Position numbers and translations under genes: made by a program. DNA of 41,357 nt from the NCBI GenBank assembly GCA_016787225.1, contig JAEUUY010000016.1, forward strand, positions 1 to 41,357, in the 5' to 3' direction. Under the pieces are notes generated by a model. It searched no databases and was not told the DNA's origin. It worked only from the letters and a program-made list of their open reading frames with translations. Within the stretch, counting starts at the first letter, position 1, and every line of letters starts with the position of its first letter. Below are positions 9,015-14,838 of the stretch, piece by piece. The DNA is from Chitinophagales bacterium. Its GTDB lineage: Bacteria > Bacteroidota > Bacteroidia > Chitinophagales > JADJOU01.

Positions 9015-11726
9015 TTGAATTTGTTTAAATGTATTCTGTTTGTAGTAAACTTTCTCATTTTATTTATAAACATTGGAATTTCACAAAATTATAAAATTAC
9101 TCATTATGGCGTCAAAGAGGGCATGTCAAGCAATTGTGTCTATCATTGTACTCAGGATTCATTGGGTCTTATTTGGTTTGCTACAGATAATGGTTTGACT
9201 AGATTTGATGGTAGAAAATTTAAACATTTTGGAATAACTGACGGACTTAGGCAAAATGAAGTATTTCATATTCAGCCTATTTCAAAGAACATACTTCTTG
9301 GCTATGATCTCAATCATTGCTTTGTAATAGATAATGGAAGGATTAAATTTCTAGTTTCCGAAATTAATAAAGTGAATGCATTAAATCATTTTTATACTGA
9401 CGTCTATGATACTAAAGTCGTAGTAAGCAAAAAGGATGGTATATTGATATTTAATAAAAGGAATTTTAAGCTCATTAATAAATATCCCCTTGGATTGTCT
9501 TTATCATATATTGATTCATTTAATAATTTAAAATTTATTCCTATAAGAAAAAACGTACAATCAAGTGTAGTTAAAGGATTTGTTAATAATAAGGATACTG
9601 TTTTTAAAGTAAATTTGTCTAATAATCTTGAACCAATTATTGTATTTAAAGATATAGTTTCTACATTTTTTACTAAGGATTCCAATCTCTTTATTAATTC
9701 CCAAAGTGGACTTTATTGTAAAAAGAAAAATCAGCAAAAGGCCTTTAAAATATTTAGTCATAATAGTTTGAATTTTGTTTATGTTGATAATAAATCAAAT
9801 ATTTGGGCTTGTACAAGCACCGATGGAGTTTATTTATTGCAAAAAAATGAGGTTAAGAAATTTTCAAATATTAAAAATTGTACATTTCGTACAATCAAAG
9901 TCAATAGTTCAAAGGCATTATTTGGAGGCCTGAATTGCTCAGCAGAAATGGAAAAAGGAAAGTTAAAGGTGACGAAGTATAATGGCAATGAAGTTTTAAA
10001 TCCATATTATTGGAAGAGTCAAAAAAGAGCAATATTTATTGGACAATATTATATTTATTTTTCAAAGCATGACTCAATAAAATTCCCTTATAATATTAAA
10101 TGTTTTTCTTATTATAGTTCCGATACGATTCTCATTGGTTCTGGAGCTGGCTTGTATTTTTATGATCTTAAGAATAGAAAACTAGGTGGCAAAATGATTG
10201 ATGGTAGAATTTATTCATTAGGCTATGGTAATAATAAAATATGGGCATACACTGAAAAAGGAATAGTATTGATCCATAATGGACGTTATCAATATTTAAG
10301 ACTAATTAAAGATAAGGATATTAGTATAAGTAATGTTATGTCAGATAAGCAAAAGAATACCTGGATTTCGACCTCAGGCATGGGGGTATTCGTTCTAGAT
10401 AGTCAAAATCAAGTCATAAAAAACCTGCAAGAAAAAAATGGATTAATAAGTAATAATTGCAAATCTATGTTTATTGACGATGACAATCGAGTATGGCTTG
10501 CTAGTAATAAAGGATTATCCTGTATTGATGAATTAGATAAAATTAGAAATTATACCGAATCTGATGGCTTACTTTCTTCGGACATATATGATTTGGCATT
10601 GATTGAAGATACTGTTTATGTTCTTACTAGCTTGGGTTTATGCACGTTTAATTATATTCCTAGAACGCAAATCTATTTTTTTCCTCTATCAATAACTGAA
10701 TTAAAAATAGGAGATAGTATCTATAGCTCTATACCCTCCATACTTGAACCAAGTTCTAATTCTATTAAAATAAGTTATGCTGGTATCTATTATGAAGCAA
10801 GTGACGATATTCAATATGAATATAAATTAATATATAACAATGTCGATAGCAAATGGATAAATACACCAGATAATCAAATTGCGTTTTCTTCACTAAAGCA
10901 TGGAAATTATAAGTTATTGATAAGAGCATATAATAAAAATGATAAAACAATTTTATCGAAAACTTTTGTCTGGACATTTAAAATCAAGCCCTATTATTTC
11001 CAAACTATATGGTTCTTCATATTATGTGTTTTGACTATAGGGATAATTGGGCTATGGTATGGGTATAGCTATCAAAATCGGAAGAAAAAAATAGAAAGTG
11101 ATAGGATGATCTTAGAGTCTAAGTTAAAAGATATTACCCTTCGCAGCTTACAGCATCAAATGAATCCTCACTTCATCTTTAACTCATTGAATACAATCCA
11201 ATATTTTATCTCTATGGAGAATGAAATGGATGCGAATATTTATCTTTCCTCTTTCAGTCAATTAATGAGAGATATGCTTGAAAATATCAAAAGAGAACTG
11301 ATAACTCTTGATGCAGAAATAGAATTTAATAAACGCTATGCAGAATTGGAGTTAATGAGATACCAGAATAAATTTGATATAGAGTTTAATGTAATGTTAG
11401 ATAATACAGAGGATATATTGATTCCAACAATGTTAATTCAGCCCTTAATAGAAAACGCAATAAAACATGGAGTGTCTAATCTAAAAAATAATAGAGGAAA
11501 AATTGAAATTAATTTCTATAATAAGTCAATTGATTTATTACAGATAGATGTCAAAGATAACGGAACTTATACTCCTAGGACTAATTCTAAACCCAATTAT
11601 AAATCTACAGCTATGAATGTGATAAAGGAGAGATTAGCTCTCTATACTAAAAACAATTGTTCTGGGGAGTTTTCAATTCAGTATTATACTGAAAACACGG
11701 TTGCCACTATTATTATCCCTTATTAA
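9015..11726 (+). CDS. Two-component sensor: beta-propeller, Y_Y_Y domain and LytS-type histidine kinase
   Basis: This is a 903-residue sensor. A signal peptide (1-23, ending IGISQ) leads into a periplasmic region with two-component propeller repeats, visible as GLIWFATDNGLTRFDG, NTWISTSGMGVFVL and RVWLASNKGLSCID. A Y_Y_Y domain lies at about 580-660, one membrane helix at about 665-688 and a cytoplasmic His_kinase domain after it. The phosphoacceptor is His719 in QMNPHFIFNSLN; the N-box is LIENAIKHGV and an ATPase DNG follows. The last glycine-containing box is degenerate (STAMNVIKERL, Ala in place of the usual Gly). The start must be TTG at 9015, because an in-frame stop lies just upstream and later ATGs would lose the signal peptide. 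It begins 5 bases after the fusion gene and is followed by its response regulator. Confidence 0.92.
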   Translation: MNLFKCILFVVNFLILFINIGISQNYKITHYGVKEGMSSNCVYHCTQDSLGLIWFATDNGLTRFDGRKFKHFGITDGLRQNEVFHIQPISKNILLGYDLNHCFVIDNGRIKFLVSEINKVNALNHFYTDVYDTKVVVSKKDGILIFNKRNFKLINKYPLGLSLSYIDSFNNLKFIPIRKNVQSSVVKGFVNNKDTVFKVNLSNNLEPIIVFKDIVSTFFTKDSNLFINSQSGLYCKKKNQQKAFKIFSHNSLNFVYVDNKSNIWACTSTDGVYLLQKNEVKKFSNIKNCTFRTIKVNSSKALFGGLNCSAEMEKGKLKVTKYNGNEVLNPYYWKSQKRAIFIGQYYIYFSKHDSIKFPYNIKCFSYYSSDTILIGSGAGLYFYDLKNRKLGGKMIDGRIYSLGYGNNKIWAYTEKGIVLIHNGRYQYLRLIKDKDISISNVMSDKQKNTWISTSGMGVFVLDSQNQVIKNLQEKNGLISNNCKSMFIDDDNRVWLASNKGLSCIDELDKIRNYTESDGLLSSDIYDLALIEDTVYVLTSLGLCTFNYIPRTQIYFFPLSITELKIGDSIYSSIPSILEPSSNSIKISYAGIYYEASDDIQYEYKLIYNNVDSKWINTPDNQIAFSSLKHGNYKLLIRAYNKNDKTILSKTFVWTFKIKPYYFQTIWFFILCVLTIGIIGLWYGYSYQNRKKKIESDRMILESKLKDITLRSLQHQMNPHFIFNSLNTIQYFISMENEMDANIYLSSFSQLMRDMLENIKRELITLDAEIEFNKRYAELELMRYQNKFDIEFNVMLDNTEDILIPTMLIQPLIENAIKHGVSNLKNNRGKIEINFYNKSIDLLQIDVKDNGTYTPRTNSKPNYKSTAMNVIKERLALYTKNNCSGEFSIQYYTENTVATIIIPY

Positions 11727-11737
11727 ATCAGATTAAA

Positions 11738-12481
11738 ATGATAAAAGCTATAATCGTAGATGATGAATTGACTAGTGTTCAGTTATTGTCTAACTTACTA
11801 AAGAAGCATTGCGATCAAATTGATATCTCTGGCGAGTTTACAGATATTGAAAGTGCTTATGATTTTATTTCATTGCATTCTCCTCAATTAGTATTTCTAG
11901 ATATAGATATGCCACCCTTTACGGGTTTTGATTTATTAAAAAGAATAGAAAAACCTAGTTTTGAGGTAATATTTGTGACAGCTTATGATCACTACGCAAT
12001 AGAAGCTATCAAGTTTTCTGCCTTATATTATATTCTAAAACCAGTGAATATTATAGAATTGAAAGAGGCTGTAAAGAGAGCAGTGGAGAGAATTTCCAAT
12101 AATCAAGTATCGGATGTCTCAATATTAAATAAAGTCCAAGATAACAATTATCAAGGAATAAAGAGAATAGTTCTCAATCATTTTAAGGGTTCTGAACTAG
12201 TCGATATAGAAGATATTTTGTATTTAGAAGCCAATCAAGCCTATACCAGTTTTGTTTTAGTGGATGAAAAAAAAATAATTTGTAGTAAAAACCTCGCAGA
12301 ATATGAAAAGATGCTTTTTAATAAAGGATTTTTTAGGATTCATAAGTCGTTTATGGTCAATATGAAATTTGTAAAATCTTTAGATAGAAAGGAAGGATTG
12401 GAAATTTTACTCATTAATGATATAAGATTGCCACTTTCAAGGACTAGAAAGGCAGGTTTTATTGATATACTGAAATTGTAG
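11738..12481 (+). CDS. LytTR-family response regulator
   Basis: The 247 residues comprise a receiver domain (1-120) and a LytTR DNA-binding domain (about 145-247). The receiver has the acidic pair Asp8/Asp9, phosphoacceptor Asp55 (VFLDIDMP), Thr81 and Lys101 (LKP). The LytTR part shows the usual FFRIHKSFMVN and LPLSRTRK segments. It starts 11 bases after the sensor kinase and is surely its partner. Its stop codon (TAG, 12479-12481) is already inside the first of four spaced direct repeats that match the LytTR binding consensus, so the regulator probably acts on the next gene at 12625. Confidence 0.95.
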   Translation: MIKAIIVDDELTSVQLLSNLLKKHCDQIDISGEFTDIESAYDFISLHSPQLVFLDIDMPPFTGFDLLKRIEKPSFEVIFVTAYDHYAIEAIKFSALYYILKPVNIIELKEAVKRAVERISNNQVSDVSILNKVQDNNYQGIKRIVLNHFKGSELVDIEDILYLEANQAYTSFVLVDEKKIICSKNLAEYEKMLFNKGFFRIHKSFMVNMKFVKSLDRKEGLEILLINDIRLPLSRTRKAGFIDILKL

Positions 12482-12552
12482 TTTATCAATATATAAGACC
12501 GTTTATCAATTCAGAATTACCGTTTATCAATTCAGAATTACCGTTTATCAAT
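12478..12552 (+). promoter_or_regulatory. Four spaced direct repeats: predicted LytTR operator
   Basis: GTTTATCAAT occurs at 12481, 12501, 12522 and 12543, so the steps are 20, 21 and 21 bases, close to two helical turns. The last three copies are preceded by ACC, giving ACCGTTTAT at 12498, 12519 and 12540, a full match to the known LytTR site pattern [TA][AC][CA]GTTN[AG][TG] with the typical 12-base spacer. Two of the spacers are identical, making perfect 21-bp repeats. The first copy is weaker (GTAGTTTAT) and overlaps the regulator stop codon. The proximal site is centred about 48 bases before the expected transcription start of 12625, an activator position. Confidence 0.85.
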
Positions 12553-12581
12553 TGCTTGAAATTTTAGTTTGTTTATGATAT

Positions 12582-12589
12582 GATCTTTG
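12582..12589 (+). promoter_or_regulatory. Promoter -7-like box (GATCTTTG) of the S74/T9SS surface gene
   Basis: GATCTTTG is one base off TAnnTTTG and lies 35 bases before the ATG at 12625. No -33 TTTG is found at the normal spacing. A weak promoter beside a row of activator sites fits control by the LytTR regulator. Confidence 0.45.
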
Positions 12590-12624
12590 TGTCATTATTA
12601 TTAATCAACTTAAATTTTTAAATC

Positions 12625-14838
12625 ATGAAAAAAATATTTTTAGTTTTTACTGTTTTACTGAATATGCATAACGTAAATTCACAAATACCAACAGCTGGGA
12701 GGGTTTTACATCTAGATGCCAATATTGGTTTTACAGGAAGTGGAACTGCTGCTGCAGCTTGGGCTGACCAATCTGGTAACGGAAATAATTGCACTGTTAT
12801 GGCATTATCTACAGGTGCACCTACTCAAAACGCAGTCAATGGATTCCAAGCAATAAATTTTGGAGGAAATGTGATTATGAGAAGTGCAACAACCAATACT
12901 GTGACTGGAACTGTTGGTACCATAGTTTTAGTCAAAACAAATAATGGAAATGGTGCACCCGTTTCAGTTGCAAATGATGGGACTGTAAATAATGAATTAG
13001 TCATTCAGGATAATGTTACATATCATCATTCAAGTGCATCTAATTGGGTAGGAAAGCAACATCATTGTACTGGAACTATACCAGCAAACTCCCCTATGAT
13101 TATTGCAGGTACATTTAATACTAATGTGGCAACATCTGATATTTCTAATTTCACAAATGGAGCGATATCTACATCAGCTATGAACACTCTAGGAGTAGCA
13201 GTAGCTTATACAGCCAATAATAGAAGAATATATGTCGGTTCTAGAAATCAGAATGGTGCGTTGCATGTTCCGTTTACAGGCAATATTTTTGAGGTTATAA
13301 TTTATAATCGAATACTTAATGCAGTTGAATTGAATCAAGTATATGAAACTCTTAAATGTAAATACAATGTTAACTATGCTGCTTGTAATTTGAATCCAAA
13401 CACTAATGCAACGATTGTAAATTCAAAGAAAGATACCTTATGTATAGGAGATTCTACTATATTGACTGCAAATCCTGCTGGTATGACTTATGCGTGGAAC
13501 ACAACTCCTTCTAAAACTACACAGTCCATAGCTGTAAAAGCTTCTGGAACATATACCGTGACAGTGACTACTCCAAATGGATGTACCTCTATCGCTTCTA
13601 GAATTATTGTATTCCGAGAATGTTGTCCAGATGAGTGCTTTTGGAATAAGGGTGGAAATATAAATGTAACATCTACCAATAACATCATTGGGACTATGAG
13701 TACAACCAATGTTCAAGATTTTAGAATTTTTACAGCAGGGACTCAAAAAGCAGTAGTTACAACCTCTGGAAACATTGGAATTAATAATCTTGCTCCTTCA
13801 AACAGATTAGAAGTTACACATGGTACAGCTGGAAATTCTGGTTTGAGATTGACAAATTTAATCTCCGGAACTAGTACTACTACTAATAACGCTAATCAAG
13901 TATTATCCGTGACATCAAATGGAGATGTAGTACTAGTTAATACAAATCAGGGGATTTCAAGTTCTTGTTCGACTCAATTTTATGTACCTAGAGTTAATAT
14001 TACTGGATCATCAAACCTTACATGTTCTCAGATATATGATAATGGATCTAGTGTAGGAATTAGTTCAACCGGACCTTTTAATTATACATTAACCACAATT
14101 CCTCCTTTTTCAGGTGGTACAGTTACAACCACAGGAACTTTGAAATTAGATGTGAATGGAATCATAAGATGTACTGGAATATTTGCCACATCTGATGAAA
14201 AACTCAAAACCGAAATAAATTCAATAAAGAGTGCAAAGTCTATAATTTCAAAACTAAATGGAAAGACTTATTTTTGGAATAAACAATATGCAGAAAGCGC
14301 AAGCCTAGATAATGGAAGACACTATGGATTTTTAGCTCAGGAGTTAGAAAAAGTAATGCCAGAAGCTGTATTAAAAGATAATCACGGAAGATATGCTGTA
14401 GAGTATAATGCGCTGATTCCAGTTTTGGTAGAGAGTCAAAAGGAACTTATAAATGAAAATGAGACTTTAAAAGCTAAAATCTCCAGTTTAGAAGAAAGAT
14501 TTACTTTATTAGAAAATTCTCTAGTAACCATCTGCGAAAGTGGTTGTATTGGCTTAAAAAAGGAAGTTAAAAATATGGATGTATTATATCAATCAATCCC
14601 GAACCCTACAGATGATGTAGCCTTGATTAACTATATTTTAAGTCAAGATGATCAAGATGCATATATTTCAGTCTTCTCTAACGAAGGTAAACAGCTTAAA
14701 ACTATTAGACTAGAGTCTAAAATTGGAAAAGGAAATGTTAAAATTTCCTTAACTGAATTATCTGCGGGTGTTTACCCATATTCGTTAATTATTAGTGGAA
14801 AAGTAATAGATACGAAGAGACTTCAAATAATCAGATAG
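12625..14838 (+). CDS. Secreted surface protein: LamG-like domain, peptidase S74 chaperone, T9SS sorting domain
   Basis: The 737 residues begin with a signal peptide (1-20, ending VNSQ). Residues about 25-245 look like a concanavalin/LamG-type domain as often found in T9SS cargo (LHLDANIGF, WADQSGNGNN). An Ig/PKD-like segment follows at about 262-325 and then a repetitive Thr/Ser/Asn-rich stalk. Residues about 520-635 form a peptidase S74 intramolecular chaperone, with candidate dyad Ser523 and Lys528 in TSDEKLKTE, and a coiled coil at the end. Residues about 655-737 are a type A T9SS C-terminal domain (IPNPTDDVALINY, SAGVYPYSL). It is probably an adhesin or matrix protein exported across the outer membrane, and probably activated by the LytTR regulator through the repeats just upstream. 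A strong terminator follows. Confidence 0.88.
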   Translation: MKKIFLVFTVLLNMHNVNSQIPTAGRVLHLDANIGFTGSGTAAAAWADQSGNGNNCTVMALSTGAPTQNAVNGFQAINFGGNVIMRSATTNTVTGTVGTIVLVKTNNGNGAPVSVANDGTVNNELVIQDNVTYHHSSASNWVGKQHHCTGTIPANSPMIIAGTFNTNVATSDISNFTNGAISTSAMNTLGVAVAYTANNRRIYVGSRNQNGALHVPFTGNIFEVIIYNRILNAVELNQVYETLKCKYNVNYAACNLNPNTNATIVNSKKDTLCIGDSTILTANPAGMTYAWNTTPSKTTQSIAVKASGTYTVTVTTPNGCTSIASRIIVFRECCPDECFWNKGGNINVTSTNNIIGTMSTTNVQDFRIFTAGTQKAVVTTSGNIGINNLAPSNRLEVTHGTAGNSGLRLTNLISGTSTTTNNANQVLSVTSNGDVVLVNTNQGISSSCSTQFYVPRVNITGSSNLTCSQIYDNGSSVGISSTGPFNYTLTTIPPFSGGTVTTTGTLKLDVNGIIRCTGIFATSDEKLKTEINSIKSAKSIISKLNGKTYFWNKQYAESASLDNGRHYGFLAQELEKVMPEAVLKDNHGRYAVEYNALIPVLVESQKELINENETLKAKISSLEERFTLLENSLVTICESGCIGLKKEVKNMDVLYQSIPNPTDDVALINYILSQDDQDAYISVFSNEGKQLKTIRLESKIGKGNVKISLTELSAGVYPYSLIISGKVIDTKRLQIIR

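Follow-up and report, generated by a model that had tools for sequence, protein, structure and literature searches.

A phased array of LytTR-type repeats between a response regulator gene and a secreted S74 protein gene in a Chitinophagales bacterium: a probable activator operator with sibling arrays of different words

LytTR domains canonically recognise two 9-bp repeats separated by 10-13 bp (PMC11347149). In Staphylococcus aureus, AgrA, a receiver-LytTR activator that works with a histidine kinase, is served at agr P2/P3 by 9-bp direct repeats about two turns apart, with the promoter-proximal repeats centred near -60 and with suboptimal spacers in the promoters themselves (PMC4227749). Operators with three repeats have been described for RcoM1 of Paraburkholderia xenovorans and CoxC of Afipia carboxidovorans, in which a LytTR domain is served by evenly spaced direct repeats (with spacers of 12-13 bp in the case of RcoM1); CoxC is a repressor, whose three-repeat operator overlaps the -35 box (PMC11347149). 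LytTR operators in Bacteroidota, or operators with four repeats, were not found in the literature searched, which covered few subscription papers. Promoters of Bacteroidota have a -7 box with the consensus TAnnTTTG, at position -12 to -5 (PMC9723704).

Here we describe an array of phased repeats in a stretch of DNA of 41,357 nucleotides from a Chitinophagales bacterium (the whole of which is called the window), between the gene of a LytTR regulator and the gene of a secreted S74 protein. The genes of the kinase, the regulator and the S74 protein stand in one line, in the same direction, and the locus comprises the following features:

9015..11726, + strand: sensor histidine kinase, 903 aa (Pfam Reg_prop, Y_Y_Y, His_kinase)
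11738..12481, + strand: LytTR response regulator with receiver and LytTR domain, 247 aa (Pfam)
12481..12490, + strand: repeat copy 1, GTTTATCAAT, weak LytTR match (7/9), 20-bp step
12498..12510, + strand: repeat copy 2, ACCGTTTATCAAT, exact LytTR consensus
12519..12531, + strand: repeat copy 3, ACCGTTTATCAAT, exact LytTR consensus
12540..12552, + strand: repeat copy 4, promoter-proximal, ACCGTTTATCAAT, exact LytTR consensus, with TTTG 44 bp past its core C
12556..12558, + strand: TTG that may serve as a poor -33 element, 23 bp ahead of the -7 box (spacing counted by hand)
12582-12589, + strand: -7-like box GATCTTTG, one base off the Bacteroidota TAnnTTTG
12625..14838, + strand: secreted protein with S74 chaperone domain (Peptidase_S74, 8.6e-16) and a borderline T9SS type A sorting domain, 737 aa
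14865..14894, + strand: terminator-like hairpin and T run, past the S74 gene

The kinase contains the kinase motif HQMNPHFIFNSLN, and translation may in fact begin a little past the TTG. The regulator encoded upstream of the array has a LytTR DNA-binding domain (PF04397, E 3.9e-19, 69.1 bits against a cut-off of 22.6) and a receiver domain (Response_reg, 5.1e-20), and its residues D55, T81 and K101 are invariant among the paralogues. The target had been called an S74/T9SS gene in an earlier note made from the sequence alone; the S74 part of that name holds, while the T9SS type A tail (TIGR04183) is borderline, scoring 22.6 bits and thus just below the cut-off of 23. The corresponding tails of two paralogues score 27.4 against a Pfam cut-off of 27 (L158) and 25.1 against 23 (L160), and the N-terminus of the S74 protein resembles, by eye, a signal peptide.

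Reading of the sequence places GTTTATCAAT at 12481, 12501, 12522 and 12543, i.e. at steps of 20, 21 and 21 bp, exactly as the earlier note had it. Copies 2-4 share identical 13 bp and contain the 9-mer ACCGTTTAT (12498-12506, 12519-12527 and 12540-12548), which agrees exactly with the LytTR consensus [TA][AC][CA]GTTN[AG][TG] (WMMGTTNRK) and is separated by spacers of 12 bp, within the 10-13 bp (a step of about 21 bp) expected of such sites; the units 12498-12518 and 12519-12539 are identical over their entire 21 bp. The 9-mer of copy 1, GTAGTTTAT, matches the consensus at 7 of 9 positions, with TA where the other copies have CC, and its G is the final base of the TAG stop codon of the regulator (12479-12481); outside the core, copies 1 and 4 diverge. 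The three exact copies, the two identical units and the start of the array within the stop codon, all of them claimed before, are therefore upheld. Taken singly, WMMGTTNRK words show no enrichment in the window (37 observed, 47.6 expected), so that only the phasing counts as evidence. When the intergenic region was dinucleotide-shuffled and searched for chains of 9-mers at steps of 20-22, none of 3000 shuffles had four phased copies, which the real sequence has, and one had three.

The -7-like box begins 30 bp past the end of the array, in keeping with the earlier estimate of about 30 bases. The accompanying claim that a -33 element is absent needs qualification: there is no well-placed one, but a TTG is present at 12556-12558. 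If the box is taken to occupy -12 to -5, and the start site is accordingly placed near 12594, the centre of the pair 12519-12548 falls at about -60.5 and the array ends at about -42. On this reckoning the repeats lie just upstream of the promoter, with the proximal pair near -60, as in the AgrA promoters, which in turn differ in having two sites each and a Firmicutes -35/-10 architecture, and in activating a regulatory RNA and a quorum-sensing operon. RcoM1 and CoxC, on the other hand, are one-component CO sensors, and their repeat word, TTCNNGCA or TTNNNGCN, is not that of the window.

It is quite probable that the LytTR response regulator whose gene directly precedes the array uses it as an activator operator for the adjacent S74 gene. 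The regulator would be phosphorylated by the adjacent histidine kinase and would then fill the ACCGTTTAT repeats side by side on one face of the DNA (21 bp being two turns), with copies 3 and 4 acting as the canonical pair, to which copy 2 would add a further site and copy 1, the weaker match, possibly another. The promoter-proximal pair, centred near -60, would help RNA polymerase at an imperfect -7 box that has no well-placed -33 element, and the gene of the S74/T9SS-type surface protein would be switched on. Binding, activation, phosphorylation dependence and cognate pairing are what we infer at this locus.

Paralogous loci with members of the S74 family and their regulators are found repeatedly, and sibling loci with a kinase, a LytTR regulator and a secreted protein, in the bacterium's own genome and in a congener, exhibit the same layout with different words, at steps of exactly 21 bp and with two or three sites. 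At G000:C11 the order is kinase, regulator, S74 gene and a second T9SS gene; three sites (GCGCTCAC, ACGCTTAC and TCGCTCAA) at exactly 21-bp steps precede the S74 gene and two (ACGCTTACA and ACGTTCACA) the second gene. Between the kinase and the regulator of this locus there is about 1.4 kb of short open frames (L158:8050-9413), possibly an insertion or a decayed gene; in the window these two genes are nearly contiguous. The S74 promoter at G001:C123 has two perfect copies of ACACTTATTCATT and a third, weak copy, all at 21 bp; at G001:C80 there are two sites, ahead of an S74 gene that is itself upstream of kinase and regulator; and at G001:C107 three sites precede the gene of a small secreted protein. 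In another family of the order (G015:C170), CGTTTATC, CGTTTATC and CATTAAAT stand at 21 bp before a secreted protein. The earlier note had regarded absence of the repeats in relatives that keep the gene order as evidence against its proposal. The opposite was seen, as the sibling kinase/LytTR/S74 loci carry 21-bp arrays of their own words, equally far from the -7 box; the family's five other genomes yielded no close orthologue with the same repeat word. The array of the window is almost certainly an operator of a known kind, whose layout is repeated in related bacteria with different words. The sibling arrays mostly adjoin their own regulators, and from this adjacency each regulator is presumably matched to its own repeat word; in the tree of regulators, the forks among the array-bearing ones are mostly unresolved.

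In all seven promoters TTTG is found 41-44 bp past the core C of the last site: at 44 in the window, at 44 and 41 in the S74 gene and the second gene of C11, at 44 in C80, at 43 in C107, at 43 in G015:C170 and at 44 in C123. In shuffled sequences TTTG falls at 41-44 in 1-5% of cases per promoter, and in at most three of the seven promoters at once in 5000 rounds, a test that is not blind, since the promoters were first picked by eye; the weak third site of G001:C123 was counted after its phase had been seen, and without it the agreement is six of six. None of the seven promoters places a TTG some 20 bp upstream of the box, that of the window being 23 bp away, and this lack of a well-placed -33 element fits the expectation for activator-dependent promoters. 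The literal pattern CGTTNA-N15-CGTTNA-N35..39-TTTG, considered as a general signature, was rejected: across 398 genomes of the order it exhibits no visible excess over the reversed control (totals judged by eye), and an excess of CGTTNA-N15-CGTTNA with TTTG is seen only in this genus and in a small number of genomes.

As an unbiased test, intergenic regions were taken from loci retrieved solely through homology of the regulator, and every period was searched for any 10-mer that recurs with at most one mismatch. Period 21 was found in 32 of 320 regions from named genomes and period 42 in 20, over a background of about 2-4, although many of these matches represent one orthologous Tenacibaculum/Polaribacter/Kordia locus and are not independent; in the bacterium's own order the numbers are 9 of 75 and 6, over a background of about 1. 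This TPR-kinase/LytTR locus resembles the window in having putative 21-bp sites (mostly three, with the word GTTTACTCATT) beside the kinase-regulator operon, in a divergent promoter; the targets examined comprise a VWA-like protein and one other secreted protein rather than S74. Of the four cases translated, three have the GTTTACTCATT promoter (L085:2572-2807, L091, L102 and orthologues) pointing toward a VWA-like secreted protein. A mechanical count of sites gave approximately 21 arrays with three sites, 8 with two and 4 with four, at a site-acceptance background of 1.2% per offset and with some AT-rich arrays misregistered (including those of the S74 genes in C11 and C80). Three-site arrays are thus common in Bacteroidota, and four sites are at the high end of the common range.

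These counts bear on a stronger form of the explanation, according to which all copies are filled together and the S74 gene responds steeply, in an all-or-none manner. It is suggested by the four phased copies, three of them identical over 13 bp, and by CoxC, which needed all three repeats for efficient binding (PMC11347149). We nevertheless regard it as doubtful, because copy 1 is degenerate, stands at a 20-bp step and overlaps the stop codon, because the sibling loci have two or three sites, and because the number of sites alone does not confer steepness. Of the earlier proposal of a dedicated four-site operator acting as a cooperative switch, the dedication of a LytTR operator to the neighbouring S74 gene is retained, given the sibling arrays and the failure to find a second array, while the four-site switch is unproven, operators with three sites being already published.

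The regulator bound to the array might alternatively block the polymerase, in the manner of CoxC, whose operator demonstrates that multi-site LytTR repressor operators exist (PMC11347149). The TTG at 12556-12558, which nearly abuts the last copy, would suit such a role, but the end of the array at about -42, the proximal pair centred as in the AgrA activator sites, and the lack of a well-placed -33 element in the window and the sibling promoters all suit activation, which makes repression improbable.

Another possibility is that the array is read by a different LytTR paralogue or by an unrelated factor. The genome carries six LytTR domains. However, a search of the 2.96-Mb genome (99% complete) for the TATCAA word with up to three mismatches revealed no further array, so the word forms an array only beside this regulator; besides the window array, the looser scan returned one three-mismatch match, which lies within a coding frame, and the control gave more. 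The earlier note had proposed scanning the genome for further targets of the repeat pair; our scan relied on sequence patterns, and weaker or single sites may exist elsewhere. A sigma-70 scan was uninformative, with 22 sites against 19 expected, and Rfam gave no matches.

A second family of 21-bp site pairs, with the word ACCGTTTACAAAC, is also present in the genus, and its TTTG likewise stands at exactly 44. One such array is present in G002, of the same genus (C72:3610-3680), in whose assembly (93% complete) a LytTR domain was looked for and none was found; its regulator may be encoded in a missing contig, or its reader may be other than LytTR, and the certainty that LytTR reads the array of the window is slightly lowered by this finding. 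Even so, a reader other than the neighbouring regulator is quite improbable, given where the TATCAA array lies and given that sibling arrays mostly adjoin their own regulators.

Several further observations were made, most of them on the second family. Paired ACCGTTTACAAAC sites with TTTG at 44 (L206:1501-1660, i.e. G000:C27:54128; L200, G001:C3; L201, G002:C72) are followed, downstream of the box, by about 100 nt without an open frame and with a conserved GGGG(T/A)A(A/T)AATTCCAAAATACTA, in G000 also with a terminator-like hairpin; this element, conserved in three species and with no Rfam match, is a candidate small RNA. Four sites of the family, in two 21-bp pairs about 51-52 bp apart, are present at L199:1470-1700 (G000:C5) and L209 (G001:C72), at L199 preceding the gene of a secreted 353-aa protein. 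Tandem repeats at G000:C31:8307-8753 (CGTTGAGACAAGATGAATC...) are periodic in themselves and in this way fitted the promoter pattern at one mismatch.

An origin as a functionless tandem repeat, made by replication slippage of one 21-bp unit and suggested by the two full identical units, is very improbable and was rejected, because the siblings with other words keep the 21-bp step and the distance to TTTG, and copies 1 and 4 diverge outside the core.

The activator operator proposed for the window may be one instance of a general promoter grammar of LytTR regulators in Bacteroidota. We put this forward tentatively, as a possibility that falls somewhat short of being probable: usually three (here up to four) 21-bp-phased sites, at a fixed 41-44 bp before the TTTG of the -7 box, would connect every duplicated pair of kinase and regulator with a secreted surface protein of its own, and the word would diverge along with the regulator so that the paralogues stay insulated. 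Bacteroidota have many LytTR regulators (61 LytTR domains were found in one genome searched), and with a fixed promoter grammar in the DNA, pairs of regulator and target would become predictable from sequence. The duplicated kinase/LytTR/S74 loci offer a natural test set for how paralogous regulators keep separate DNA words.
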